Virus record (IMG/VR): IMGVR_UViG_3300025137_003462
Location: 1-44,141 of that record
From: a virus
Length of the DNA stretch: 44,141 bases
Reading direction: 5' to 3' (one strand)
Shown one piece after another: positions 2,711 to 33,227 of this stretch. A program made the position numbers and the translations under genes. Numbering within the stretch: the stretch's first letter is position 1; each line of letters begins with the position of its first letter. Under the pieces are notes generated by a model. The model was not told where the DNA came from. It did not search any database and saw only the letters and a program-made list of their open reading frames with translations.

Positions 2711-3274
2711 TTAAAACTCAAATAGCTGAGTTGCGTTTGTTACTGATAAAGCATTTCCGTCTGCCTTCGTAAATGCACTAAACACTAGATTTCTAGCATT
2801 TGATGCTTTAAATGTGAATTTTTTTACAGGTGTAGTTAGTCCACCAGCCGCTGTAAATAAAGGAACAGACCTCGCTGGTGCTCCCTCTTCATTTGTAATT
2901 GCTAGTTTATTATCACCTGCTTTTGAGTTTTCTGGTAAAGTAACACCATTAGCAGAAATAGAGATTGTGCCAGTTCCGTCTGAACTAAGAGTTGCCCCAC
3001 CTAAGTTAATTGTGTCACCTGAAAGAAATAAGTCTGAAAATCTTTTACTTGCACTACCTAAACTTCTAGTGTTATTTGCATCAGGTACTATATCTTGAGC
3101 AACTGCTGATAAGTCAACAGAACCACCACCACCACTACTTGAGACAGAAGTAATCGTTCCACCAATATTTACATATAGTTGATTGTTAGATGTATTTAAT
3201 CCTATTTCACCAGACTCTAAATCTGAAGTACTTGGTACACCTGAAATTCTTTTTATCTTTATCTTTAATGCCAT
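2711..3274 (-). CDS. Tail-fibre-like virion protein, 187 aa
   Basis: A 187-residue protein with the composition and motifs of phage fibre or adaptor proteins. Its N-terminal PSTSDLESGEIGLNTSNNQLYV segment resembles the start of many phage fibre and tropism-determinant proteins (a 'counts on grid' GEIGLNT...LYV motif). A Ser/Gly linker (about residues 46-53) follows, then a NNTRSLGSASKRFSDLFLSG motif shared with other marine phage structural proteins, and a beta-rich C-terminal half. No enzyme motif is seen. The start codon overlaps the stop of the upstream PAP2-fusion gene (TAATG), so the two are translationally coupled. The N-terminus is basic (MALKIKIKRI). A virion role is family-based inference; attachment site and partners are unknown. 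Confidence 0.7.
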   Translation of the reverse strand: MALKIKIKRISGVPSTSDLESGEIGLNTSNNQLYVNIGGTITSVSSSGGGGSVDLSAVAQDIVPDANNTRSLGSASKRFSDLFLSGDTINLGGATLSSDGTGTISISANGVTLPENSKAGDNKLAITNEEGAPARSVPLFTAAGGLTTPVKKFTFKASNARNLVFSAFTKADGNALSVTNATQLFEF

Positions 3275-4695
3275 TAATTACCATCCACTTGATCTGTAAA
3301 TTCTAGTTTACCCGATGTTGAGTTAAATACCAAAAATTTTCCATTACCAAGTGATGATGTATCAATGTCGTCCAAGTCAAGTAAGTTCACAGCTCCACCG
3401 CCACCTATTGTGGACATTTGCCGTGATACCATTTCTCTAAAGTGATTAAATTCTCTTCTTATGTTTTCAATTTCATTTAATTCTTTTTTCTTAGGAAGAT
3501 GATTTGTCATATGATCTGCATAGATATGACCTGCTGATGCAGTTGTTTTTTCTTCTAGTGTCTTTTCAAAATCATCTAATTTATTAAAAAATGTTTTTAG
3601 AATATCTACTCTCTCTGAGTTATCTTCTCTAAGAATAACTTCTTCATTTTGCATTTCTTTAGTTTTCTTTTTCATCTGTTCAATGTATGCACGATACACA
3701 GCAGCCTCTTCTCTTTTACCCATTTCTTTTGCTCGTTGTTCCATAGCAACAGCAGCTTGAATTTTATGTGCATGAGTTTTACCAGAGTTTTTAATTTTAC
3801 TTACACTTGCTCTTGCAGTTTCAACATCTTTAAATCCTAAACCATGTATTGTTCCTTTTGGATTCTCATCTGTATATAAGTCAGAATGTTTATCTGATCC
3901 AGCAGGTTGACCTTTCTTTCTAGGTATTCTAGGTGCTTCATTTAAATAATCACCATAGTTATCTTTGTTCATAACTAGAAACATTTTTTCTGCAAGTAAA
4001 TTACCAGCAACATAATCTGCTAGATAATGAAATCCTGCTTTTACTCTTCCCATACCACATTCTTTTGCAGCTTCTATAATACCTTCTTCATGCTTTGGAA
4101 ACTTAGCAGATACATATAAACCAACTAACATTGATTGACACGCATGACCACTAGGATATGCAGGTGTATTACTAGTCGTACTAGACATTGGTTTAATAGA
4201 TGGGTCAATTCTCTGTGGTCTAGCAACATTAAACATTTCTTTAAAATATTTTATTGTTGGTTTTGCTTGTTGAACAATATCTTCCATTTCATTATCATGA
4301 AATCCTAATCCATGTTTTTTACAATACATATCTATCGCATAGAAAGCATGTTCATCATGATCATTAATTGATTGTTCATCGTCTAAAGTTCTATTTGCAA
4401 TAATAGTTTTTAACTTGTCTGCTTCTTTTTCTAAGTCTGCAGGTGGATTGGGTAATGTAATTCGTTCATATAATTTTTTTGGAAAAAAGTCAAACTCTTC
4501 AAAAACCTTAGGGTCTTCCATAATCTGTGGTACTGATCTTGCCTCAGATATTACAGCAAAGAAATCGCCAAGAGATTTAGTTGTTTCGATACGAAACATT
4601 TTATCTTTCTCTTTTTGTACTCTTTGTTTTTCTGCTTCTATCTGTTGAGATTTAATACTTTCCTCAGATACAAGTTGTATAAAGTTTTCTAACAT
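3274..4695 (-). CDS. PAP2/haloperoxidase-type phosphatase fused to virion-like C-terminus
   Basis: A 473-residue protein with three recognisable parts. Residues about 100-240 carry the full PAP2/vanadium-haloperoxidase signature: K152-x6-R159-P160, then P181-S-G-H184, then R217-x5-H223-x3-D227. The first Ser of the usual SRx5Hx3D box is Gly. No membrane helices are evident, so it resembles the soluble acid-phosphatase or haloperoxidase branch rather than membrane lipid phosphatases. Residues about 281-350 form a basic helical domain (IHGLGF...KTHAHKIQAAVAMEQRAKEMG). The last 45 residues (GGGG, then LLDLDDIDTSSLGNGKFLVFNS) look like the C-termini of phage fibre and adaptor proteins. It lies between an NMNAT-like fusion and fibre genes, with an AAAGGATAAG ribosome site. 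Phosphatase activity and presence in the virion are both inferred; the substrate is unknown. Confidence 0.75.
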   Translation of the reverse strand: MLENFIQLVSEESIKSQQIEAEKQRVQKEKDKMFRIETTKSLGDFFAVISEARSVPQIMEDPKVFEEFDFFPKKLYERITLPNPPADLEKEADKLKTIIANRTLDDEQSINDHDEHAFYAIDMYCKKHGLGFHDNEMEDIVQQAKPTIKYFKEMFNVARPQRIDPSIKPMSSTTSNTPAYPSGHACQSMLVGLYVSAKFPKHEEGIIEAAKECGMGRVKAGFHYLADYVAGNLLAEKMFLVMNKDNYGDYLNEAPRIPRKKGQPAGSDKHSDLYTDENPKGTIHGLGFKDVETARASVSKIKNSGKTHAHKIQAAVAMEQRAKEMGKREEAAVYRAYIEQMKKKTKEMQNEEVILREDNSERVDILKTFFNKLDDFEKTLEEKTTASAGHIYADHMTNHLPKKKELNEIENIRREFNHFREMVSRQMSTIGGGGAVNLLDLDDIDTSSLGNGKFLVFNSTSGKLEFTDQVDGN

Positions 4696-4696
4696 C

Positions 4697-6826
4697 TTAT
4701 CCTTTCATCAAATCTGTTACAGACTTGCCTGACCAAAACTTACAAGACCAATACTTTGCTTTCCATTTAGGACCTGGGTTATCACAACCATGTCTATCTC
4801 TGAAAGCTTTTCTTCTTGCTGGGTCGTCTCGTTTGATTGACATGTTAGGATCACCAAACTCAACTTTAACTACATTTCCTTTATCGTTTTTTACATAAAC
4901 TTTTGTCTTCTTAATATCACCTTTCATGGGATTATTAAGTTTTACTTTTCTACCTTGATACTCAGCGTCTTCTTCTATTTCGCCCCATGAGTTTCTATTT
5001 GAATCAGTAAATTCTTTAAACTTTTCTGGTACACAATTAGGTACTTTTTTACCACCCTTGTCTTTCATACCTACTTGTTTATATCCTGTCCAACAAGCTT
5101 CTTTCTTTAATGCTTTACCAGACATAGAAGCAACTCTTGTCACTCCGTCTGATTTACTAAGATCAATTTTCTCTATCATAGTATCGTGGACTTCATTTAA
5201 TTTCCACCACCAATTTTCACCATGGTCTAATTGATATGAATCTCTAGTATCTTCTGACTCAAACCATTCGGTAACCTGAGCCATTTCAACTTTTTTGTAC
5301 TTCTTTTTATCCTTCGCTTCGCCAGGTGTAACATCTTTAGTATGTTTAGCATACTCGTTAGGATAACTAAATGATTCGCCTCTGACTTTATCTGCTAAAT
5401 CTTTATCTGCTTTACCCCATGTTCCACTTGACTTAGTAATAAAAGAATTAACTCTAGCAAATGCCCATTGTTGTGGGGTAGTACCAGGTCTATGACCTGT
5501 CTTCCATGCAGCCATTCCTCTATCATAAACTTTCTTTAGAATAGAATATGGCATACCAGACTTATCTGCTTTCTTAATCAATCCCTCAATCTTTTCATTT
5601 AATTCATCGACAGATTCTTTACCAAACATTGCTTGATATTTTTTAGTATGTTTAGATGGTTTTGTTTTTCCGTCTGAATCACCAGGTGCTGGTTTGTAAC
5701 TTTTGTCCATATCGTCATCTTTCTTTCCATATTTAGCAAAGTGTCTTGCCCTTGCTTGTTTTGTTGATTTAGATAGTTCGTCACCTTCAGCATCTTTAGC
5801 ATAATATTTCGCAGGTTGTGTACCCTCTCTATCTTTAATGTCTGTATCTTGTTTTACTTCTCTAATTTGTTTTAATGCATTTTCAATAGGCACTTTTCTT
5901 TTTACTAATTTTTTTACAGTCGCTTTATCTTTAGTAGATAATTTTTTATATCTTCTATCTTGATCTTTACTTATAGTACCTATATCTCTATTAAATACAG
6001 TTGGATTAAAAGCACTAGAACCTTCTTCAATATCGTGTAACCAAGCTTTATGTACCTTGTTTGTTTCATCTGTAAATGCAACATAATTTGTACCTCTTAG
6101 AATAATTCTACCTGATACATCATTCGCTTCTACTATATCACCAATGTTCCATATCTTACCTGTTAGATATTGATCTCTTAAATGTTCATAGTCATTCATT
6201 TCACCCATGTCTTTTTCTTCACGAATGCCCATGTACTTTCTTACATCTCTATATAATTTTCTTGCATCTTTAAAACCTGATGGTACTCCACTTTCAAAGT
6301 CTTGTACTTTGCCATCAACTGCAGCTTGTCTCATCTTACTAGCAGACATACCTGATACATCTTCAGCATCGGGGTCTCTGTCTCCAGCAGATACTACTTT
6401 AATATTTTTAAAATTGTAGAACCCATGTTTTTTTCCTTTGACATTATTGTATGTTGTCAATAGTCTTTCAAACTCTTTTACTCTATCACTACCAACAACC
6501 ATAGTTAATTCTGTATAACCTTGATCGTATAATGATACTGCAATATTCATAGCAGTAATTGCTTTCTTATCTGCAATTATATTTCTTGCATGTCTAGAAA
6601 ACATTTTTCTCATGTACGCTATCTTTAACGAATGAGGTAATGGGTCTTTCTTTTGATTTTGTGAAAATGACGGAAATATTTTATAGTCATTACTACCTGC
6701 AACTGACTTTACTTTACTAATAAGTTTCTCATGACCAGTAGTTGGTGGATTGAATCTACCGAATGTAAATACAACTTCGCCTTTACCTGGTGCTTCGTAG
6801 AGACTAAATTTTTCCAATTTTATCAT
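4697..6826 (-). CDS. NMNAT-like nucleotidyltransferase fused to several phage domains
   Basis: A 709-residue multidomain protein. Residues 1-200 are a cytidylyltransferase-fold nucleotidyltransferase: GRFNPPTTGH (23-32, the T/HxGH nucleotide-binding motif), a VVGSDR segment near 110-115, and SGMSASKMR (158-166, matching the ISxTxxR motif). The closest functional family is NadM/NMNAT-type adenylyltransferase, which makes NAD from NMN and ATP, but the substrate cannot be read here. About 220-265 is a small beta domain (WNIGDIVEAN to AFTDETNKVHKAWL). About 340-410 is a charged linker; about 420-480 a helical domain with GMPYSILKKVYDRGMAAWKTGHRPG. The C-terminal 90 residues (GRKVKLNNPM to WKAKYWSCKFW) resemble a C-terminal domain I recall from T4-like marine phages. 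It overlaps the upstream basic-protein gene by 23 bp. Its late-operon position suggests a virion-associated or late function. Confidence 0.7.
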   Translation of the reverse strand: MIKLEKFSLYEAPGKGEVVFTFGRFNPPTTGHEKLISKVKSVAGSNDYKIFPSFSQNQKKDPLPHSLKIAYMRKMFSRHARNIIADKKAITAMNIAVSLYDQGYTELTMVVGSDRVKEFERLLTTYNNVKGKKHGFYNFKNIKVVSAGDRDPDAEDVSGMSASKMRQAAVDGKVQDFESGVPSGFKDARKLYRDVRKYMGIREEKDMGEMNDYEHLRDQYLTGKIWNIGDIVEANDVSGRIILRGTNYVAFTDETNKVHKAWLHDIEEGSSAFNPTVFNRDIGTISKDQDRRYKKLSTKDKATVKKLVKRKVPIENALKQIREVKQDTDIKDREGTQPAKYYAKDAEGDELSKSTKQARARHFAKYGKKDDDMDKSYKPAPGDSDGKTKPSKHTKKYQAMFGKESVDELNEKIEGLIKKADKSGMPYSILKKVYDRGMAAWKTGHRPGTTPQQWAFARVNSFITKSSGTWGKADKDLADKVRGESFSYPNEYAKHTKDVTPGEAKDKKKYKKVEMAQVTEWFESEDTRDSYQLDHGENWWWKLNEVHDTMIEKIDLSKSDGVTRVASMSGKALKKEACWTGYKQVGMKDKGGKKVPNCVPEKFKEFTDSNRNSWGEIEEDAEYQGRKVKLNNPMKGDIKKTKVYVKNDKGNVVKVEFGDPNMSIKRDDPARRKAFRDRHGCDNPGPKWKAKYWSCKFWSGKSVTDLMKG

Positions 6827-7211
6827 CTGCTTTATTTGCCTTTGCGGCTCTCGCCTTTTTAACTTTTATTAATTCATTTTTCTTAACTTTAACTAATGCT
6901 CTTTTAGCAATCTTATCAATTGCACCACCGTACTTAGATGCTACCTTTTGATCAATTTTGATTTTGGCCATAGGTGCTAACTTATTATAGTTTGGATAAA
7001 ATTTATTAAGGATTTTTTTCTTTGCTAATTTTCTTGCTTTAATTGCAATCTTAGCTGGACTTGCTACTCTTAATTTTGCTCTTGCAACTTTATTTTTGAA
7101 TGCCGAAGATTTTGCCAGACGTGCCATACGTCTACCCATTTTACGTCTCTGAACCATGTTCACGACTCTAACACCTTCTAGTGTTACTGCAAGTTCTTTA
7201 AAGGTAATCAT
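6804..7211 (-). CDS. Highly basic conserved phage protein, 135 aa
   Basis: A 135-residue protein dominated by Lys, Arg and Ala (for example RRKMGRRMARLAKSS near 22-36), with a central YPNYNKLAPMAKIKID segment and predicted helices throughout. I recall similar short basic proteins in the late regions of other marine T4-like phages, but know no assigned function. The charge fits nucleic acid binding or an internal virion protein; this is inference from composition. The gene sits between the ligase-like protein (4-bp gap) and the NMNAT-like fusion (23-bp overlap). The N-terminal MITFKELAVTLEG is similar in style to the neighbours MKTLLEQAA and MIKLEKFSLYEA, which may be shared short leader-like segments. 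Confidence 0.6.
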   Translation of the reverse strand: MITFKELAVTLEGVRVVNMVQRRKMGRRMARLAKSSAFKNKVARAKLRVASPAKIAIKARKLAKKKILNKFYPNYNKLAPMAKIKIDQKVASKYGGAIDKIAKRALVKVKKNELIKVKKARAAKANKADDKIGKI

Positions 7212-7215
7212 CTTA

Positions 7216-8448
7216 TCATTTATCCCATGCTTTTATCGCTGTAAAGTTATTGAAACTAAACTCCATACGATCTACTAATTTTACTGCATTACCAGACACC
7301 CTGTCAATAGCGACATAACCTTCGGGGTTAGTGACTTTAAACCCATCTTTTGTCTTAACAAATGTATCCGTTAACTGTTTAACATTATTTAGTTTTCTTA
7401 CAATTTGCATCTTAGCATCAATTAAGTAGTTTTGAAACTTGGCAACTTGAGATAAATTGTTGACATGTTTCTTCATTTCTATTGAATATTGTTTTTGTAT
7501 ATTTTGATACTTCCCTTTTGCATTTGGTGTCTTTACTTTATCAATTTGTTTCTGTACATTATCCTCTACCCATTTAACGTACTCTTTTGCATGTTTATTT
7601 GGATTTGATATCTTCTCTCCTCTTCTTACTTTACTATTGTTATACGTCTTGTATGACGCTCCTACAAGGGCTCCTGTCATGCTTTCTTGAAGTTTAAGAA
7701 ACTTCCTTAACATTGGACCATTAATAGATTGGAATGTTTTTCCTACATCTGAAAGAATTGTAGTAATTGAAGCAGTCTCTTTTTCAGTAAATGTTGATCT
7801 ACCTGATACATCTTTATATGTTGCATCATCCATCCAAACCGAATTAGATTTAGTTAGTTTAGAAACGTCAGCACCAAAAGATGCTTTCATACTCTGTAAT
7901 TCTTTTCCTTTATATGTTGTATGCCAGACTACACCAACTTTTGCTTTCTTTATTTGGGAGCCAAGATCAGAGTCAACATCAACAGCATATACGATAGTAT
8001 TTGGTTGGAAAGTATAATACTTCTTGCCATCAATTTTATCTGTCGATACATCATCTGTAAACATAAGGTCACCTTGAAGTACACCTGTAATTCCAAGTTT
8101 TTTAAACTCTGCCAAAGCAATTTTAAATTTTGAGTTAAGAGCACCTGATAAGTCATTGTCGATCTCCTTGTTTGATTTGTATAATTTTGGACTAACATTA
8201 AATACAGATTTCTTGGCAACAAAAAACTTGCCATCTGCTGGATCAATCCCAGCGAATATCGCTGGTGCGCCATCCCATTTAACAGTCATATTAACAGAAG
8301 ACCTAGCAGAACCTGCTAACATATCTCTTAAACTTCTTAAAAAGTTAAGTGATGCTCGTCCACCCTCAACACCAAAGTTTAGAATATGATCTTCTAAATG
8401 TTCTAAGTGTAAATTTTTAGTTGCAGCTTGTTCTAATAAAGTTTTCAT
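7216..8448 (-). CDS. Ligase-fold nucleotidyltransferase-like protein, 410 aa
   Basis: A 410-residue protein showing the ordered motifs of the covalent nucleotidyltransferase superfamily (DNA/RNA ligases and capping enzymes). Motif I is VKWDGAPAIFAG with K57 as the candidate adenylated lysine (KxDG, 57-60). A VLQGDLMFT segment (123-131) and IVYAVDVD (152-159) resemble the strands around motifs III and IIIa. NPEGYVAID (374-382) matches motif IV and NAVKLVDR (387-394) matches motif V. A long helical region (about 215-365) lies between IIIa and IV, where ligases are normally compact. It is annotated hypothetical in relatives as far as I recall. It is coupled by ATGA to the Gly/Asn-rich gene and lies in the late block, unlike T4 ligase genes. 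Whether it seals nucleic acid or modifies another substrate cannot be told. Confidence 0.55.
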   Translation of the reverse strand: MKTLLEQAATKNLHLEHLEDHILNFGVEGGRASLNFLRSLRDMLAGSARSSVNMTVKWDGAPAIFAGIDPADGKFFVAKKSVFNVSPKLYKSNKEIDNDLSGALNSKFKIALAEFKKLGITGVLQGDLMFTDDVSTDKIDGKKYYTFQPNTIVYAVDVDSDLGSQIKKAKVGVVWHTTYKGKELQSMKASFGADVSKLTKSNSVWMDDATYKDVSGRSTFTEKETASITTILSDVGKTFQSINGPMLRKFLKLQESMTGALVGASYKTYNNSKVRRGEKISNPNKHAKEYVKWVEDNVQKQIDKVKTPNAKGKYQNIQKQYSIEMKKHVNNLSQVAKFQNYLIDAKMQIVRKLNNVKQLTDTFVKTKDGFKVTNPEGYVAIDRVSGNAVKLVDRMEFSFNNFTAIKAWDK

Positions 8449-8702
8449 TGTCCGTTTCCACCATTTCCGTTACCACCGTTTCCACCATTGCCATTTCCGT
8501 TTCCACCATTTCCGTTTCCATTACCATTACCATTGCCGTTACCATTTGTAGGTGCAGTACCACCAACGTCTGTATTCTTAGGAACAAAAATATAATTTCC
8601 TCTGTATCTTATTTTTTTAGCAACACATTGTTTTAACTTAGGATCATATTTTGTACCTGGTGGACATTTAGTTGATGCCATTAATTCGTTATATGTTTTC
8701 AT
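8445..8702 (-). CDS. Small protein with Gly/Asn-repeat tail, 85 aa
   Basis: An 85-residue protein. The first half (to about residue 45) has a short compact region with two Cys (CPPGTKYDPKLKQC), resembling small cysteine motifs such as chitin-binding or EGF-like fragments, followed by a basic RYRGNYIFVP strand. The second half is nearly pure Gly-Asn repeats to the C-terminus. The gene is real by context: its ATG overlaps the stop of the 443-aa gene (TAATG) and its stop overlaps the next start (ATGA). The repeat DNA (8455-8545) is a simple 6/9-bp periodic sequence likely to vary in length between relatives. Function unknown; a flexible virion linker is one possibility. Confidence 0.6.
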   Translation of the reverse strand: MKTYNELMASTKCPPGTKYDPKLKQCVAKKIRYRGNYIFVPKNTDVGGTAPTNGNGNGNGNGNGNGGNGNGNGGNGGNGNGGNGQ

Positions 8703-14730: not shown

Positions 14731-14792
14731 AATTTTGTTTTATACCTATACATAACTAAACACACAAAGAGTATTATTAAAAACTCTATCAT
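14727..14792 (-). CDS. 21-aa hydrophobic micro-ORF
   Basis: ATG 14792 overlaps the cytosine-methyltransferase stop (ATGA) and its TGA overlaps the start of the 54-aa gene (ATGA). The peptide is one hydrophobic stretch (IEFLIILFVCLVMY) followed by a basic end (RYKTKL), as in single-span membrane micropeptides with an N-out/C-in or coupling role. It may only carry ribosomes from one gene to the next. Confidence 0.4.
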   Translation of the reverse strand: MIEFLIILFVCLVMYRYKTKL

Positions 14793-15925
14793 ATATTTTT
14801 TAAAACTTTTTTATACATCGAGTCTGCAAGATGAGCCATCATTAAACTAGGAACCATACGACCACAACGTTCACTTTTTTGTGACCACTTCCCTGTCAAT
14901 TTAAAATCATCAGGTAATGATGTCACTCTTTTTAATTCACCCAAAGTAAATTTTCTATCATCATTCCAATGACAAACACCAGCAGTTTTTTCTGTTGCAC
15001 CCATTGCTGTAATAGTAGGACTTGGTTGAAATTCTGAAGCAATCTTAAGATTGAAATGCCATCCTTTAGGATGATAATCTGTTCCTGTAATAACCTTTGC
15101 TGGATTTCTTGGCATCAATGTACACGTTTGTTTATAGTATGCTGTTTCTTTCCATTTAGTAGTAAGCATTTCAAGTTCTTCTTGATCATACTCTAATCCG
15201 TCAAATGCACCCTGTAAAGTTGTTATTGTATTGTTTGGTGTAGGAAACAAAGATGATAATGTCATAAAGTTTAAACCAACTTGATCCATAATATCGTCTC
15301 TTACTCCCATGAAGAAAACTCTACGTCTTCTTTGTGGAACACCAAATAGAGAACAATCATGTACTTTTGCAACTACTTGATATCCAATGTCCTCAAATGT
15401 ATTTTGTATTTTGTTGAAGTATTGTTTTGCTTCTCCAACTGTTAGACCTTCAACGTTCTCTGCAATAATAGTTTTTGGTCTGATAACATTAGCAACTCTT
15501 AAAAACTCAAAGAATAAATCTTCAATGTTAGTTACTGTTTTGCCATCTGAATATTGTTTAGTTTTTCCAAACCCATCACTATGTACAGTTCCCTCTCTTG
15601 CAAGAGTACCACACATACTAAATGCTGAACAAGGTGGACTACCATCTAATAAATCTAGTTCGCCTTCTTTTAAACCTGTAAGTTTTAGAAAGTCTTCTCC
15701 TTTTAAATCTTTTATATCACCATCAAGTATAGGTGTGTTTGGATAATTATCTCTGTAAGTATTTCTTGCCTCTTCAACAAATTCATTGATTGCAAGTATC
15801 TTACCACCAGCAAGTCTGTAACCTGTTGATGATCCACCACCACCAGCGAAAGTAGATATTACTCTAAATTTTTCTAATGCTTCTCCAGCATAAACGTCTT
15901 TCATTAGATATGGTTTGTACTTCAT
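14789..15925 (-). CDS. C5-cytosine DNA methyltransferase with Arg in motif X
   Basis: A 378-residue C5-cytosine methyltransferase. Motif I FAGGGGSSTG (26-35), motif IV GSPPCSAFS with catalytic C99, motif VI ENV (156-158), motif VIII QRRRR (198-202) and the late PSPTITAMGA segment (301-310) are all intact, so it should be active on DNA cytosine. In motif X, where most members read GN(S/A)VP, this one reads GRMVP (355-359), placing R356 at the usual Asn. In the engineered M.MpeI enzyme an Asn-to-Lys change at this conserved site allows use of carboxy-SAM. Start ATG 15925 is chosen because it forms an ATGA overlap with the upstream gene; a longer frame would lie inside that gene. No partner restriction enzyme is seen. 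Target site unknown. Confidence 0.9.
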   Translation of the reverse strand: MKYKPYLMKDVYAGEALEKFRVISTFAGGGGSSTGYRLAGGKILAINEFVEEARNTYRDNYPNTPILDGDIKDLKGEDFLKLTGLKEGELDLLDGSPPCSAFSMCGTLAREGTVHSDGFGKTKQYSDGKTVTNIEDLFFEFLRVANVIRPKTIIAENVEGLTVGEAKQYFNKIQNTFEDIGYQVVAKVHDCSLFGVPQRRRRVFFMGVRDDIMDQVGLNFMTLSSLFPTPNNTITTLQGAFDGLEYDQEELEMLTTKWKETAYYKQTCTLMPRNPAKVITGTDYHPKGWHFNLKIASEFQPSPTITAMGATEKTAGVCHWNDDRKFTLGELKRVTSLPDDFKLTGKWSQKSERCGRMVPSLMMAHLADSMYKKVLKNI

Positions 15926-16737
15926 AATATAAATGCCTCCAAGTTTGCAGGTACAGTTTGTTTTTGTTTCGGCCAATCTCTTACTAAATCCATTACTCTT
16001 GTTCTACCTTTGTAATTAATTTCAGTATTATTTAGCAGTCTTTCAAATAGTAAGTTGACACCAGAATCTAATTGTAAGTTTAAATGTTTCTTAACATCTT
16101 TACCAATATTAAAAGCAGTTCTAACATGATGCTTTTGATAAGGTTGATTTAATTGATACCAATCCATACTATAAAAATAATCTTTCACTTCCTTTGTTAG
16201 ATAAGGTGTAACAAAAACTTTATTATACTTATCTGCAATTTTTTTGTGCCAGTTGTATCCAGCAGTATTCTCGGGCAAGAAATAGTTATCTCTAAATTCA
16301 TCAAACTTTTCTTTTGTATGTTTGTAATGGATATTTGCTTTTTTACTCACTCCATAATAACCATCTGCAGCCCAACCAGATAGAACATACGTTTCTGCAA
16401 TCTTTGGGTAGACGTACATAAAAGGATACACACATTCATAATGAGTTTTCTTTACACATCCTAAGTTTACTAGTTTGTAAAAGTCTTCCTCTAGTTTGCT
16501 CGTATCAATTACAGTTCCAACGAATCCCCAGCCGTTTTTAATTGCAATCTCTTTAGCCTTATTATAATCATAACTGACCTGATTGTCAAGGCAAAAAGAG
16601 TATGCATTGATCTTTTTTCCACACTCTTGAGCTGCTAAACCTACTGATATACTGTCAATTCCACCAGATAATAATACTGCAACATAATCATCTTTTACAG
16701 TTTTATCTATATGTTCAACTAGCAGTTTATCTATCAT
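15922..16737 (-). CDS. Asparagine-synthetase-like ATP pyrophosphatase
   Basis: A 271-residue N-type ATP-pyrophosphatase domain like the synthetase half of asparagine synthetase. The PP-loop SGGIDS (24-29) binds ATP pyrophosphate; NAYSFCLDN (about 44-52) and SGWAADGYYG (about 119-128) match the adenine-binding strand and the SGEGxDExxGGY segment of AsnB. The N-terminal glutaminase domain is absent (the protein starts only 20 residues before the loop), so ammonia or another amine would have to come from elsewhere. Family chemistry is adenylation of a carboxylate followed by attack of an amine. It is coupled by ATGA to gp43 upstream and to the cytosine methyltransferase downstream. Acting on a DNA-borne carboxymethyl group is an inference from position only. 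Confidence 0.7.
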   Translation of the reverse strand: MIDKLLVEHIDKTVKDDYVAVLLSGGIDSISVGLAAQECGKKINAYSFCLDNQVSYDYNKAKEIAIKNGWGFVGTVIDTSKLEEDFYKLVNLGCVKKTHYECVYPFMYVYPKIAETYVLSGWAADGYYGVSKKANIHYKHTKEKFDEFRDNYFLPENTAGYNWHKKIADKYNKVFVTPYLTKEVKDYFYSMDWYQLNQPYQKHHVRTAFNIGKDVKKHLNLQLDSGVNLLFERLLNNTEINYKGRTRVMDLVRDWPKQKQTVPANLEAFIL

Positions 16738-27255: not shown

Positions 27256-27272
27256 GGGCTTAAAAAACCCTT
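27254..27272 (-). terminator. Candidate terminator hairpin after the 279-aa gene
   Basis: AAGGG (27254-27258) pairs with CCCTT (27268-27272) around a loop containing TTTTTT. It ends the 27.3-33.2 kb island and overlaps the -35 of the next promoter, and it is short, so the call is tentative. Confidence 0.35.
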
Positions 27273-28110
27273 ATAAATCAAGGGCTTCTAGTACACGATC
27301 AGCGAGAAATCTATGGGATTCCTCATTTGGATGGGCATCGATGCCACTGATTCTGTATGATTCTCCGTATGTTTTCCTTAGTAATTCTAACATATTATAT
27401 CCACCTAATCTTTCGAATATAGGATATCCAATAAATTTACTATCTTCTATTAACAATGAAATAGGATTTTTGATAAAATCACGTTCTCTTATCTGTCGTT
27501 TTTCCATTTCAAGATCAGTTGGATATTTATCGGGGTCTAAAGTTTCTTCTGTATCATAATTTGCAGTTGTATTAGACTCTTTTCTAAATTTATTATATGT
27601 CGGTAACATCTGCATTTGTAAGAAATTTAAATGATTCTCATTACAGAAACATTGAAACATATACATTATTTGTAAGTTGTCATTCATAATATCAATATCT
27701 TTAGGAAACTTTGTTTCTAACATATCATAGTACGAATCTACTTTTGTTTCAGAATCAACAATACTGTCTTTAGTAAAACTATCTTTTACATCTGACACTC
27801 TAGGAAGAATTGTACGAAACGGATAGTCTGTATAATCTTTATTATCAGATAGTATATCTTGTCTAGTCCATTCTGACCAAGCAACAATGACAGCATCAAT
27901 ATCTTTAGGATTATGTTTTAATACTTCTTTAACAACATTATGTAATATCGATCTATTACCAGAACCACATACACCCACATTGATAACTTCACGCTCAGTA
28001 ACCTCACCTAATACTTCAGGCCACATTTTAAAATCCATAGCATTTGGCTTGGCATGCTTTGGCATACCCTTATCTGTAAATGAACATCCACCAACTATAA
28101 TTTTACTCAT
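27271..28110 (-). CDS. SGNH-hydrolase-like protein, 279 aa
   Basis: A 279-residue protein with SGNH/GDSL-esterase-like blocks. The first strand ends GGCSFTD (7-13), where S would be the nucleophile (GDS-like). [11 protein letters not shown] (about 44-54) matches the Gly block and GxND block. The C-terminal [17 protein letters not shown] supplies the Asp-x-x-His dyad. It shares AWSEWTRQ and [16 protein letters not shown] with the 215-aa neighbour at 30264 (FWSDWYR, WPILRFIGGKNLYDSV), so the two are distant paralogues. SGNH enzymes remove or transfer acyl groups from sugars, lipids or peptides; the substrate is unknown. It is the last gene of the island, coupled by ATGA to the ferredoxin. Confidence 0.65.
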
Positions 28111-28433
28111 AGATTTTCCTTAAAATATTTTTCATATTTATTTTCTTCATTTTTATATTTTTCTGAATCTAAAGGTGGTTCTTTTTTTTCTGTTATTCTT
28201 GGCCATATCTGACTGTACTTGTCATTTACTTCTAACCACTTTTCTATACCAGATTCTGCATCACTAACAATAGCATCAACAGGGCACTCTGGTTCACAAA
28301 CGCCACAATCGATACACTCATCGGGGTTAATTACAAGCATATTTTTACCTTCATAAAAACAATCGACAGGACAAACTTCAACACAGTCCATTAGTTTACA
28401 TTTAATACAATTGTCGTTTACAATATAAGTCAT
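28107..28433 (-). CDS. 7Fe ferredoxin (FdxA-type)
   Basis: A 108-residue ferredoxin closely following bacterial Fdx[18 protein letters not shown] (about 10-26) and [16 protein letters not shown] (about 40-55) hold the Cys ligands of one 3Fe-4S and one 4Fe-4S cluster, and the C-terminus has [15 protein letters not shown] as in proteobacterial FdxA. It is a cytoplasmic electron carrier. Among its neighbours the radical SAM protein needs low-potential electrons, so it could be the donor; this is inference. It looks acquired from a proteobacterial host. Confidence 0.93.
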
Positions 28434-28439
28434 TTAGTT

Positions 28440-29006
28440 TTAATCTTGTTTACCTTCTTTTGGATATAACCACCAACCTGTTGATATGTATTTTGATTCT
28501 GTATGTACAGGATTGCCTCTATGAGCCCAAGCAAAAGATGCTGGGAATATAGCCATCATACCTTTTTGTGGTTGTATTCTTAACTTTTCATATAAAAATT
28601 CTGTTTCACCTTCTTCGTCTGGTATATCGTTTAAATAAATCGTCCACGCCAAACATCTTCTAATGTTTTTATAATGAGATACCTCAGCATGAAAGTTATG
28701 AAATCCACCACCTTTAGGATCAGTTCTTTGTATTTTAGTTTCTTCTGATACTAGTTTTCTGTTTCCTCTATAAACAAAAGGATAATCTGCTAGATAAGAA
28801 TTTAATGTTTCTCTTTTAATAGTTTCTATTTTATCATATAACAACTGATCAGTAATAGGATCAACCCACTTTTGTATATCTTGTCTAGTGTCTCTATTTG
28901 CTCTTACTGTTTTTGCACCAGCGCTTTCAAACCATTGAATTAACTCTTCGCATAATTCTGGTGTAGCTGCATTATGATATGTTTTACAAAACTCAATTAA
29001 TTTCAC
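28440..29006 (-). CDS. 2OG-Fe(II) oxygenase of the island
   Basis: An oxygenase-like protein. FHNFHAEVSHYKN carries a candidate HxE iron pair, AWTIYLNDIPDEEGETEFLY is the typical strand-turn of the prolyl-4-hydroxylase-like group, and AWAHRGNPV gives the distal His. No ATG is available; I choose GTG 29006 because AAGGTGAG lies about 7 bases before it, although GTG 29015 is also possible. It overlaps the end of the amidinotransferase gene by 14 bp in another frame. HxE rather than HxD would be less usual but occurs. Probably modifies a product of this island; substrate unknown. Confidence 0.75.
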   Translation of the reverse strand: MKLIEFCKTYHNAATPELCEELIQWFESAGAKTVRANRDTRQDIQKWVDPITDQLLYDKIETIKRETLNSYLADYPFVYRGNRKLVSEETKIQRTDPKGGGFHNFHAEVSHYKNIRRCLAWTIYLNDIPDEEGETEFLYEKLRIQPQKGMMAIFPASFAWAHRGNPVHTESKYISTGWWLYPKEGKQD

Positions 29007-30267
29007 GACACTCACCTTCTCTGTATGTATCTAATGTTAAACAATGTAATCCACTATCCCAAAATCTTTTATGTCTAAAAGGAACGTATATTGGATTTAC
29101 GTTTGCTGATTTTAATTTATCATGTACTTCTGTTTGATAGTTTAATGTTAGTATATTCTTTTCATCTAGACTTAACATATTAACTTCAAATAATGTTTCA
29201 TCTTGCATACCAACCCAATCATATAACCATTGATCTACAAACTTAACAAACTTATGGTCATGCATTTTTTCTTTTACAAACCAATTAATTCTTTCTTTCT
29301 TTTTAATTTTTCTATTATATTGATCTTCTACTAATTTCGCATAATCTTTTGTAGATGCAAAATCATTTGGATCATTTATAATCATACAATCCCAACCAGG
29401 AAAAGTTTTATTAAAGAAATCTTCTTTCATCCACGGCGATCCTATAATCAACCCAGGTCTAACTAAACACATACTACCATCAGTATGGCCACCAATAGCA
29501 CATGTTGCTTTTTTGTACTTGGTGTCTGGTCGTTGTTTAGTATACCAATCAAAGAAACCTGACTTGTCAACTTCATCAACAATTAACTTATCACCAAGTC
29601 TTGTTAATGATGCAGCTGACATTTGCCATGTTGACCAAAGAAATTTGCTAAACTCAATAGGATGCTTTTTTATATTTGCTTCAAAATATTCTTGAACATC
29701 CCACGATGGCTCCCATGAATTAGGAACCCCGTCTTCAAATTGACCTTCTAGTTGTGGCGTGAATGGTCCAAGCATTGTTGGTACATCATGAATTTTATTT
29801 AACACATAATTACTAAACATATCTTTACATAGAGTAATATTACAATCAAACATATCTAATGGGTGTTCACCTGTTTCTTTACAATGTAGAGAAAATCCGT
29901 CTGTTAGAAATATCTCATCACCCATTGTTATATAATTGTCTCTAGGATTAATCATTGGTTTGGGTAATGAACCATTTGGATTATTCTCTTGCCATTCCAT
30001 AAAAGAGTTTTCTTTTAAAATGTTTCCGTTTTGTGTCCATTTAGAATCTGTTTGAATAACTTCTACACCTAAATCTATAAGTTTTTTCTTTATAATATCT
30101 AAGTCTTCAATAGTTTCATACATAACTTTCTGAATACTATCTCTTATACTAGTATCTGGTAGATCATCAAAAAACTTAGGATCGTAAATGTTTCCAATTA
30201 CAACTTGTTTTAATGGATCAAAATGTGTCCAACTATTAACCTTAGAATATTTTTTCTTTGTTATCAT
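28993..30267 (-). CDS. Amidinotransferase-family enzyme (GATM/StrB-like)
   Basis: A 424-residue protein of the amidinotransferase/arginine-deiminase fold. DPLKQVVIGNIYDP starts the first repeat (17-30). INPRDNYITMGDEIF (106-120) is the conserved PRD block, GGHTDGSMC (259-267) provides the catalytic His in HxD (H261), and SGLHCLTLD (405-413) the catalytic Cys (C409), matching the GFHCWTxD ending of glycine amidinotransferase. Length fits that enzyme rather than arginine deiminase. The reaction moves an amidino group from arginine to an amine. It is coupled by ATGA to the SGNH gene upstream. The acceptor in a phage is unknown. Confidence 0.8.
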   Translation of the reverse strand: MITKKKYSKVNSWTHFDPLKQVVIGNIYDPKFFDDLPDTSIRDSIQKVMYETIEDLDIIKKKLIDLGVEVIQTDSKWTQNGNILKENSFMEWQENNPNGSLPKPMINPRDNYITMGDEIFLTDGFSLHCKETGEHPLDMFDCNITLCKDMFSNYVLNKIHDVPTMLGPFTPQLEGQFEDGVPNSWEPSWDVQEYFEANIKKHPIEFSKFLWSTWQMSAASLTRLGDKLIVDEVDKSGFFDWYTKQRPDTKYKKATCAIGGHTDGSMCLVRPGLIIGSPWMKEDFFNKTFPGWDCMIINDPNDFASTKDYAKLVEDQYNRKIKKKERINWFVKEKMHDHKFVKFVDQWLYDWVGMQDETLFEVNMLSLDEKNILTLNYQTEVHDKLKSANVNPIYVPFRHKRFWDSGLHCLTLDTYREGECREIN

Positions 30268-30911
30268 AAGTCCATACCTTTTTGTATAATAAATTCTGCG
30301 TAATGGTCATGAGTCTTTTGACCATAGTGACTATCTGTATCTGTTAGATCATCTAATTTTACACTATCATATAAATTCTTGCCACCTATAAATCTTAGTA
30401 TAGGCCAACCCCAAAATCTATCTTTATCGATGAAATCAAATAAAGGATGATTAAAAATAAATTTAGTGGCAAACATTTCTTGTTCATACTCTATCATTGG
30501 TAGGGGGTTTAATTCTTGATAAAAAGTGTAATCTATATTAGACTCTTTTAATGCTGTTTGTAGCGTGTAGAATGTTTTTAGATTTAGATTAATAAGTGTT
30601 TCTAGATCAGCATTAAGTCTGCCATGCACTATATCAGTTTGCCATTTACGGTAAGCCTCAACATCATGATTTCTATTTTGTTCTTTGTAAACTCTATACC
30701 AATCTGACCAAAACACATATACATGATCAACTTTGTAATCATGCTCTCTTATTGCTTTTAGTGTATTGTCACATATAACATCATTCCCCACACCTGACTC
30801 AGCAATATTATCTACTTTAACATTTAACTTATCTGTCCAAACAGTAATATTATTTTTTCTGTAACCAGAATATTTTGGATCGTGATTGCTGTCGCCTGCT
30901 ACTATTATCAT
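30264..30911 (-). CDS. SGNH-hydrolase-like protein, 215 aa
   Basis: A 215-residue SGNH-like protein. AGDSNHD (5-11) is the nucleophile block, ESGVGNDVI (about 38-46) the Gly/Asn block and DTDSHYGQKTHDHY (about 192-205) the C-terminal Asp/His block. Shared segments with the 279-aa protein at 27271 show common origin. It lies between the carbamoyltransferase (9-bp gap) and the amidinotransferase (ATGA overlap), so a role in attaching or removing a group on the island's product is plausible; no substrate can be named. Confidence 0.65.
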   Translation of the reverse strand: MIIVAGDSNHDPKYSGYRKNNITVWTDKLNVKVDNIAESGVGNDVICDNTLKAIREHDYKVDHVYVFWSDWYRVYKEQNRNHDVEAYRKWQTDIVHGRLNADLETLINLNLKTFYTLQTALKESNIDYTFYQELNPLPMIEYEQEMFATKFIFNHPLFDFIDKDRFWGWPILRFIGGKNLYDSVKLDDLTDTDSHYGQKTHDHYAEFIIQKGMDL

Positions 30912-30920
30912 ATTATAACC

Positions 30921-32261
30921 TTAAAATACTTTGACATTGTATAACTTTTCAAACTCCATAGCATCATGCCATGTATTAACCATTGGTTTTCCTTTTATAT
31001 TTAAACTTGTATTCAATAACATAGGACAACCTGTTTGTTCGTAAAACTCTTCTAGAATATCTCTGATAACAGATACACAACTAATTTCAACTAATTGTAC
31101 TCTGGCACTACCATCAACGTGTGTAACTGATTTATAATCATGCATTGCCTTTGCTGTAAATTGCATGTATCTATTCATACGACCTTCAAAGTATTCTGGT
31201 GCAAACTCTTCAAGTATCGCTGGAGCAAATGGTCTAAACTTTTCTCTACGTTTAATAGTATTAACTGTATCTTTAATATCTAATCTAGGATCAGCAAGTA
31301 GTGATCTGTTTCCTAATGCTCTTGGGCCAAACTCTGCTCTTCCGTTTGCAACACCACAATATCCATGTTTCAATATATGTTTAACAACTTCTTTTGGATT
31401 GATCTTATTAGAAATGTTATGACCTAAGTATGGGTGTTTCCATTTTAACTTCTTCTTTTCTATTAAAGCAGCTGCACCAAGACTAGAACCTGCATCGCCA
31501 GGATTTGGCATAATCCAAATATTAAATCTTTCTGGTATCTTACTATTTGCTACACAGTTTAAAGCACACCCACCCATGATAACAAGATTTTTAGATGTAG
31601 TATATTTTAATAATTGTAATAGTTTTGTTTCATATAGATTTTGCATACTAGCTGCAATATCATATGGATGTTCATTAGGAAATATTTGACCACAACCTTT
31701 GTGATTGTTTTTGTAAAGTAAAGGTTCTAAATCTAACTTAGGTACTCCGTATGCAGCCATACCCATTACAATATATTCTTCTTCGTTTGGTTTATAACCA
31801 AGTCTTTGTGTAATTGCAGAATATAATAAACCAAGTGAATATGGATACTTCCATGACTTGATTTTTTTCATCTTGTCACCATTACACTCCCATATAGAAA
31901 CTGTATCCCATTCACCTATGGAGTCAATAACAATTACATTACAAGTATTAAACTTAGAAGTATAATAACCTGCAGCTGCATGAGTTTCGTGATGTTTAAA
32001 TATGTGTGAATATTTTCTTTTATACTTTACTCTAGGTTGACCACTCCAAAAATTTCTAGTATTTTTCCAAAAGTAATTTTCATAAAATGCCATGTTATCA
32101 TAATAAGGTGTCTTTGCTAATTGATCTTTATGTACCCATCGATCATTTTTAATTCCACTATATCTTTCTGCGTGTGAAGCTGATATTATATTTTGTCCGT
32201 AAAGGTGTGTTACAGACGCATCATGAAACCCTTCTGATATACCTAAATTAGTTTGTTTCAT
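30921..32261 (-). CDS. NodU/CmcH-family carbamoyltransferase
   Basis: A 446-residue O-carbamoyltransferase. The N-terminal half is the Kae1-like ATP-binding domain: FKHHETHAAAGYYTS (88-102) holds the metal-binding His residues, DSIGEWDTVS the nucleotide loop, and MGGCALNCVANS the phosphate loop. The C-terminal domain carries GRAEFGPRALGNRSLLADPR, the family signature, and PMLLNTSLNIKGKP. Relatives use carbamoyl phosphate and ATP to carbamoylate hydroxyls on antibiotics, Nod factors and, in some phages, hydroxymethylcytosine of DNA. No hydroxymethylase is visible here, so small molecule, glycan and DNA targets all remain open. Coupled by ATGA to the SPASM-like gene upstream. Confidence 0.93.
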   Translation of the reverse strand: MKQTNLGISEGFHDASVTHLYGQNIISASHAERYSGIKNDRWVHKDQLAKTPYYDNMAFYENYFWKNTRNFWSGQPRVKYKRKYSHIFKHHETHAAAGYYTSKFNTCNVIVIDSIGEWDTVSIWECNGDKMKKIKSWKYPYSLGLLYSAITQRLGYKPNEEEYIVMGMAAYGVPKLDLEPLLYKNNHKGCGQIFPNEHPYDIAASMQNLYETKLLQLLKYTTSKNLVIMGGCALNCVANSKIPERFNIWIMPNPGDAGSSLGAAALIEKKKLKWKHPYLGHNISNKINPKEVVKHILKHGYCGVANGRAEFGPRALGNRSLLADPRLDIKDTVNTIKRREKFRPFAPAILEEFAPEYFEGRMNRYMQFTAKAMHDYKSVTHVDGSARVQLVEISCVSVIRDILEEFYEQTGCPMLLNTSLNIKGKPMVNTWHDAMEFEKLYNVKVF

Positions 32262-32581
32262 TTTTTAATCCTTAATTCTGCTGGATCGTGTCCTTGAGTA
32301 CACCAAAATTTGCATTGTCTGGCACAAGTCTTTTCATCTTTCCAAGACTCTGGTAATGTTTTAGTAAACCACTCACTATTTAATATTTCTTTTAACGAAT
32401 GATTATTTAAATTTTGTTTGTCTTTAGTCTTTCTATATTCTTTAAACAAATTTTGATCTGTAACTTTTTTATCTTCACGCCAATTATAAGTACCCAAATA
32501 ACAACAAGGCCAAACTGACCCATCTGTTTGAACCATTGTTTTTGTTTTATGATTTAAAAATTTACAATCTATTTTAGGCAT
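32258..32581 (-). CDS. SPASM-like C-terminal half of a split radical SAM protein
   Basis: A 107-residue Cys-rich protein: CKFLNHKTKTMVQTDGSVWPCCYLG, NNHSLKEILNSEW and CARQCKFWC are the usual auxiliary iron-sulphur cluster and SPASM features found at the C-terminus of radical SAM enzymes. Its ATG lies inside the end of the radical SAM core gene (8-bp overlap, other frame). Together they make about the length of one normal protein, so this is a split gene or a two-subunit enzyme. Confidence 0.75.
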   Translation of the reverse strand: MPKIDCKFLNHKTKTMVQTDGSVWPCCYLGTYNWREDKKVTDQNLFKEYRKTKDKQNLNNHSLKEILNSEWFTKTLPESWKDEKTCARQCKFWCTQGHDPAELRIKK

Positions 32582-33227
32582 CAGCTCTTTCTAAGTGTTC
32601 TATTTTACCTTGTTCATTTGTAAAAGTAAATATGCCTTCATCATTTTCAAATCTATCTGATCTATAAAAAACATGATTAGAAGAACCATTATCCTTTACT
32701 AGTTTTTTTATTTCTTCTATGTAATCTTGATTATGTTTGAATAATATTGTTTGAGATAATACAATTGATTGTGTTTCTGATAATGTACTCATATTTGCCA
32801 AACACCTTTTTAATGATGCACCTCTTCTATATTTTTGATGCATGTCTTCATTTATTCCGTCAATATCAAATACAATAGAAAGTCTTTTACCACAAAGAAC
32901 ACCTATGTTCCAATAAAACTCTTCGTTACGAATACTACCATTTGTTGTGATTGATACGTTTGATTTTGAGTTATCAATAATATATTGTACGATCTTTTGA
33001 ATATCTTTACACATCATAGGGTCACCCCATGTACCACAAAAACTATATTCTTCTACATCGTTAAGTGTTTCTATTGGAAATTTATTTTTAAAATCTTCAA
33101 ACGACCATTGTGTTAATGGTATATAATCATACGTCTTTGTAATATTATTTTTATCTGTTCTATCGCATTGTGGACATCTAGCGTTACATAGATTAGTAAT
33201 TGCAATATCAAGTTGTTTAACTATCAT
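32574..33227 (-). CDS. Radical SAM core protein, 217 aa
   Basis: A 217-residue radical SAM core. CNARCPQC (14-21) binds the 4Fe-4S cluster through CxxxCxxC, SFCGTWGDPMM matches the GGExP/GGDP SAM-binding block, and SITTNGSIR and LSIVFDIDGINEDMHQKYRRG are typical core strands. The protein ends abruptly at about the point where an auxiliary domain would begin, supplied by the next gene. Function depends on the substrate and cannot be named; radical SAM/SPASM proteins modify peptides, sugars and cofactors. Overlaps the 44-aa gene upstream by 11 bp. Confidence 0.85.
   Translation of the reverse strand: MIVKQLDIAITNLCNARCPQCDRTDKNNITKTYDYIPLTQWSFEDFKNKFPIETLNDVEEYSFCGTWGDPMMCKDIQKIVQYIIDNSKSNVSITTNGSIRNEEFYWNIGVLCGKRLSIVFDIDGINEDMHQKYRRGASLKRCLANMSTLSETQSIVLSQTILFKHNQDYIEEIKKLVKDNGSSNHVFYRSDRFENDEGIFTFTNEQGKIEHLERADA

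Follow-up and report, generated by a model that had tools for sequence, protein, structure and literature searches.

Enzymes of the PAP2 family, cargo proteins targeted to phage capsids, and the swapping of modules among phage fibre proteins are all known already, each separately from the others. Vanadium haloperoxidases and PAP2 enzymes have a set of sequence motifs in common. In T4, residues 4 and 7 of the capsid targeting sequence serve in targeting and residues 8 and 10 in processing (PMC9026906); mass spectrometry has placed the cytidylyltransferase family GC190 in purified S-SM1 virions (PMC3037559). The literature searched contained no description of a virion-borne or fibre-fused PAP2 enzyme, and relative to that literature the PAP2 phosphatase discussed here, to judge from its sequence relationships an exchangeable and probably virion-borne cassette, would be new.

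The window analyzed is the whole 44,141-nt stretch of IMG/VR virus record IMGVR_UViG_3300025137_003462, from a marine T4-like phage. Cultured relatives include the Pelagibacter phages Mosig and HTVC008M, the Methylophilales phage Melnitz, and cyanophage P-TIM68; the loci compared are referred to below by L numbers.

The PAP2 gene and its enzyme domain

The gene (3274-4695, minus strand, as are all its parts) has an ATG start and encodes 473 aa in four parts. Residues 1-65 (4501-4695) are an N-terminal segment whose end, LGDFFAVISE-A, matches the same segment of proteins that lack PAP2. Residues 66-250 (3946-4500) are a PAP2 domain resembling class A acid phosphatases, supported by Pfam, AlphaFold2, Foldseek, synonymous divergence (dS) and recombination breakpoints. 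Residues 251-355 (3631-3945) are a separate, highly conserved basic module (pI 9.6; phrog_727), which we call MOD; it is common to many marine phage proteins and was overlooked in the initial annotation. The remainder (356-473) consists of a predicted helical, probably coiled-coil segment with matches to tail-fibre PHROGs (356-430; 3406-3630) and a fibre-type C-terminal motif (431-473; 3277-3405; ...LDDIDTSSLGNGKFLVFNSTSGKLEF...). In the arrangement proposed here, the N-terminal segment, coiled coil and fibre-type end would together form a carrier, with PAP2 and the small MOD inserted into it.

The initial annotation had reported three intact PAP2 motifs in a soluble-looking domain, and both observations hold. 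All three motifs are exact: K152-x6-R159-P160 (4216-4242), PSGH at P181-H184 (4144-4155), and R217-x5-H223-x3-D227 (4015-4047); Pfam PAP2 (PF01569) covers residues 150-240 with E=1.3e-8 and 35.1 bits, the cut-off being 27.2. The ten catalytic positions (K, R, P, PSGH, R, H, D) are invariant in 14 of 14 relatives, down to 33% identity, that were recovered with search peptides free of any catalytic residue. They are likewise invariant in 90 of 90 aligned homologues, a result that is partly circular because one search pattern there included YPSGH. Like class A acid phosphatases, the domain looks soluble and is without transmembrane helices (maximum 19-residue hydropathy 0.96). Those enzymes are secreted with a signal peptide; the window protein has no hydrophobic N-terminal segment.

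The AlphaFold2 model of the domain, made with 14 homologous domains, has the helical PAP2 fold (pLDDT 89, pTM 0.86) and 27 PDB matches at E<=1e-3 in Foldseek. The top matches are class A acid phosphatases (Pseudomonas aeruginosa 7f17/7f18, PhoC, PhoN, and the Escherichia blattae enzyme; 2e-6 to 5e-4), and the PAP2 family profile matches 7f18 at 5e-14. Sequence and model together make phosphomonoesterase activity of the class A acid phosphatase type very probable for the domain.

The PAP2 family is encoded in at least 589 viral-contig stretches in IMG/VR, in the orders PAP2-MOD, MOD-PAP2 and PAP2-NTase-cytidylyltransferase-MOD, or as PAP2 alone. Among 50,697 annotated phage records there was no convincing match, the best covering one third of the domain at an E of 0.07. 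Bacterial relatives number only eleven and are weak (24-37%); three of these (L167-L169) fall among the viral sequences in the tree and are possibly contigs of viruses inside bacterial assemblies.

MOD (phrog_727 start, ...KHSDLYTDENPKGTIHGLGF...) is about 100 aa long and extremely conserved, occurs in many different marine phage proteins at dozens of loci, and matched no Pfam family. Very large multi-domain proteins (L010, L015, L024, L044, L046, L048, L060) combine cytidylyltransferase, Pol-beta NTase, HNH, P-loop kinase, DUF6267, PAP2 and MOD domains in varying order, often with I/L-x-E just before MOD.

The carrier, its neighborhood and exchange of PAP2

The fibre-like C-terminus proposed in the initial annotation is borne out by profile matches of residues 427-470 to phrog_13853 (6e-6) and the tail-fibre family phrog_30742 (8e-4). 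The PAP2-free orthologue in L008 matches tail-fibre phrog_28263 at 7e-8, and the PAP2-free carrier also matches phrog_30742 at 2.7e-6, both being phage fibre families. The model of the coiled-coil and fibre part shows helices and a C-terminal hairpin at low confidence (pLDDT 61). The MOD and carrier models are weak and had no significant PDB match; a profile search with the C-terminal part gave chance matches only, and the carrier C-terminus matched nothing at 1e-2 in the 50,697 annotated phage records.

The gene order in relatives is conserved: DnaB helicase-g8702-DUF6267-basic-cytidylyltransferase-carrier-P0002-fibre. In the window all the genes around the carrier are on the minus strand. 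P0002 (2711-3274), a fibre-like protein whose start overlaps the PAP2 gene stop, is the next gene in every relative whose sequence includes that side; beyond it, a long repetitive fibre or virion structural protein (2-2695) runs off the contig. On the other side are a cytidylyltransferase (NadR/NMNAT-like) and DUF5824 protein (4697-6826) of the cyanophage family T4-GC190, a small basic protein (6804-7211) whose homologues have capsid-targeting-like N-termini, and a DUF6267 protein (7216-8448) with a KWDGAPA motif, nucleotidyltransferase/ligase-like by motif only. The earlier description of the gene as lying among virion genes is thus right for the two fibre-like genes downstream and for the cytidylyltransferase, of a virion protein family, upstream; farther upstream come the basic and DUF6267 genes and then replication genes, with gp22 and gp23 only at 41.6-44 kb. 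The late promoter TATAAATA/CTAAATA was not enriched near the PAP2 gene, falling below chance expectation, and a defence-system library search gave no match.

Elsewhere in the window, also on the minus strand, an 85-aa protein (8445-8702) starts MKTYNELMAS and has a tail of glycine-asparagine repeats; the MOD protein of P-TIM68 contains a segment resembling it. At 14789-16737 a DNA methyltransferase adjoins a protein with an SGGIDS motif, which suggests an ATP-pyrophosphatase; a DNA modification pair is possible. The make-up of a cluster at 27271-33227 (carbamoyltransferase, radical SAM protein, ferredoxin-like protein, two GDSL-like proteins) suggests modification of a small molecule or glycan.

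The carrier holds PAP2 in L001-L005 and L007; of these, L003 differs hardly at all from the window and could come from the same phage. Further marine phages also have the fusion (L001, L002, L004, L005, L007, and separately L185), so its absence from relatives, which had been named as grounds for doubting it, is not what is found. Other carriers, of 266-316 aa, have MOD and no PAP2 (L008, L009, L011-L014, L016, L017 and several later loci); PAP2-free orthologues also occur in L182-L184, L186, L196-L199 and L201, and the L202 carrier has neither module. In L025-L031, carrier and fibre are a single 925-aa ORF just upstream of homologues of gp13, gp14 and gp15. T4 fibritin occupies the same place, next to gp13, as this fused protein.

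Synonymous differences between the window and L001 amount to 3% in PAP2 (dS 0.03) and 43-63% in the flanking genes, indicating a recent swap of PAP2. The corresponding dS is 0.63-1.35 for the DUF6267, basic and cytidylyltransferase genes and 0.36-0.58 for the rest of the PAP2 gene; nucleotide identity goes up sharply to 97-100% at residue 66 and down again, as sharply, around 258-270. L001 and L004 have close flanks (dS 0.09-0.38; MOD 0.44), yet their PAP2 domains are 52% identical, with a dS of 0.79. The tree requires three changes in carrier status, at least two of them forced by well-supported branches; the same type of carrier has acquired PAP2 at least twice, and probably three times. Taken together, the synonymous divergence and breakpoints, the L001-L004 contrast and the tree changes identify PAP2 as a swapped module: on these sequence comparisons it is an exchangeable cassette, gained, lost and swapped as a unit in a conserved carrier. 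One recombination joint may be MOD, with its nearly invariant start. The swap, the repeated gain of PAP2, and its presence in some and absence from others of a set of genes that are alike in all else suggest strong, variable selection on the domain, related to host or phosphate.

The last ~42 carrier codons (3277-3405, minus strand) are nearly identical at third positions across the diverged L001, L002, L004, L008, L012 and L185. Against L001, 38 of 40 third positions in the carrier end are equal, compared with 227 of 328 in the DUF6267 gene. RNA structure at this end was not significant (z=-0.95); the near-identity possibly marks a recombination joint.

Location and role of the protein

The reading we put slightly ahead of even is that the gene encodes a fibre-type virion protein with an inserted soluble, acid-phosphatase-like PAP2 domain and MOD, acting at infection. 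The protein would be mounted on the virion, with the fibres or neck as the likeliest site, and its enzyme would strip phosphate from phosphomonoesters, whether host surface groups or released nucleotides, at adsorption or entry. In its favor are the PAP2 motifs and fold, the tail-fibre PHROGs, the 925-aa fusion, the synteny, the PAP2-free orthologues, the dS of the cassette, the virion occurrence of the adjacent cytidylyltransferase family, and the repeated acquisitions. Against it stand the capsid-type N-termini of stand-alone homologues, which would place the enzyme inside the head, as well as the linkers ISE|A and LNE|A, the low confidence of the fibre model, and the lack of a late promoter.

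The leading alternative is that the window protein is capsid-internal cargo, which the prohead protease would cut at I/L-x-E|A and which would enter the cell along with the DNA. Within the host, the phosphatase would then have nucleotides or the ends of nucleic acids as substrates, beside the cytidylyltransferase and the enzyme with DUF6267. Of 56 PAP2 proteins, 15 start with a strict T4-type targeting sequence, compared with 25 of 949 other genes (Fisher p=3e-10), although such p-values are inflated, since the sequences are related and the motif was drawn up after inspecting examples. Among the 25, several are basic proteins or kinases that look like members of this gene set. Targeting-like starts are found in many stand-alone PAP2 proteins, such as MKNFTGFIREA (L149) and MKTYKEYINED (L159), and in L149, L145, L157 and L158 consecutive PAP2, MOD, DUF6267 and cytidylyltransferase genes have similar M-x-S/N-F-...-E-A starts. 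The S-SM1 cytidylyltransferase GC190, the virion protein mentioned above, also has a targeting-type start (MKKFSAFLNEAERS; MKKFSAFLNEA...). The window's own gp23 retains an SFLGE|A site, of the kind cut by the T4 prohead protease; of 40 contexts of internal MOD modules, 21 have I/L-x-E before the module, compared with 8% at random positions, and the carrier linkers ISE|A and LNE|A are of this I/L-x-E|A type and compatible with that protease.

Nevertheless, the N-terminus of the window protein (MLENFIQLVSEES) fails the strict motif, which is also missing from the L185 and L202 carriers, and carriers in general show no conservation of a signal at their N-termini; the carrier also has homology to fibre proteins, one of which is joined to it in L025-L031. 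Packaging and injection are well supported by sequence for the stand-alone PAP2 relatives, and less so for the window protein, for which we consider them unlikely, if still a serious contender. Because of its N-terminus and those of other carriers, a fibre or neck position seems preferable to the capsid interior, at about an even chance for the former and a clearly lower one for the latter. In either location the protein would be a virion-borne phosphatase acting at infection. Members of the family probably travel as a rule as cargo packaged in the head, and the window protein would represent a version moved onto a fibre-type carrier. A broader and more tentative proposal is that marine T4-like phages widely carry virion-packaged enzymes with capsid-targeting tags (the PAP2 phosphatase, the cytidylyltransferase, the DUF6267 enzyme and MOD), and that some lineages mount the phosphatase on fibres as an exchangeable tool.

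It is improbable that PAP2 is an ordinary intracellular auxiliary metabolic enzyme for phosphate salvage, joined to a fibre-type protein incidentally: some stand-alone homologues do lack any targeting-like N-terminus (MIFFRQKL...), but the same carrier has acquired the domain at least two, and probably three, times in a virion-gene neighborhood. The haloperoxidase half of the original proposal (phosphatase or haloperoxidase) fares worst, a vanadium-dependent enzyme working at the host surface being very improbable even though haloperoxidases have the same motifs and vanadate and halide are available in seawater: the vanadium iodo- and chloroperoxidases come well behind the class A acid phosphatases in Foldseek (6e-3 to 0.15, against 2e-6), the large haloperoxidase fold is not the best match, and the matched chains are 410-472 aa long against about 190 aa for the PAP2 domain. 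Sequence and fold support the phosphatase half.

Should the particle indeed carry the enzyme, outside or inside, marine T4-like phages, which are abundant, would bring a phosphatase to the host at first contact, before gene expression. The N-terminal signal would offer a simple sequence rule for predicting which marine phage proteins of no assigned role are injected.

Comparison with known systems

The class A non-specific acid phosphatases (7f17/7f18, PhoN, PhoC, E. blattae AP) have the same motifs and an all-helical soluble fold (TM by query length 0.56-0.76). With about 190 aa the phage domain is the shorter one; its identity to them is about 20%, it has no signal-peptide-like segment, and it is embedded in a fibre-type phage protein.

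The stand-alone PAP2 and cytidylyltransferase N-termini are in the same register as those of T4 internal proteins and Alt (PMC9026906), with an aromatic at position 4, I/L at 8 and E at 10, a register not kept by the window protein's own N-terminus. The available part of that source describes no PAP2 enzyme among T4 capsid cargo.

The polyvalent proteins of phages (PMC5512222) are likewise multi-domain, with shuffled enzyme modules (here PAP2, NTase, cytidylyltransferase and HNH). The terms PAP2 and phosphatase are absent from that text, and the MOD-DUF6267 linkage was not found described in the portion searched.

The T4 fibritin or whiskers gene (wac; PMC3797505) is, like the carrier, a fibre-type gene with module swapping. 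A wac-like site just upstream of gp13 is occupied only by the fused proteins of L025-L031, the window gene sitting elsewhere in its genome, and the modules differ: in fibritin the C-terminal attachment domain is swapped, while here it is an internal enzyme.
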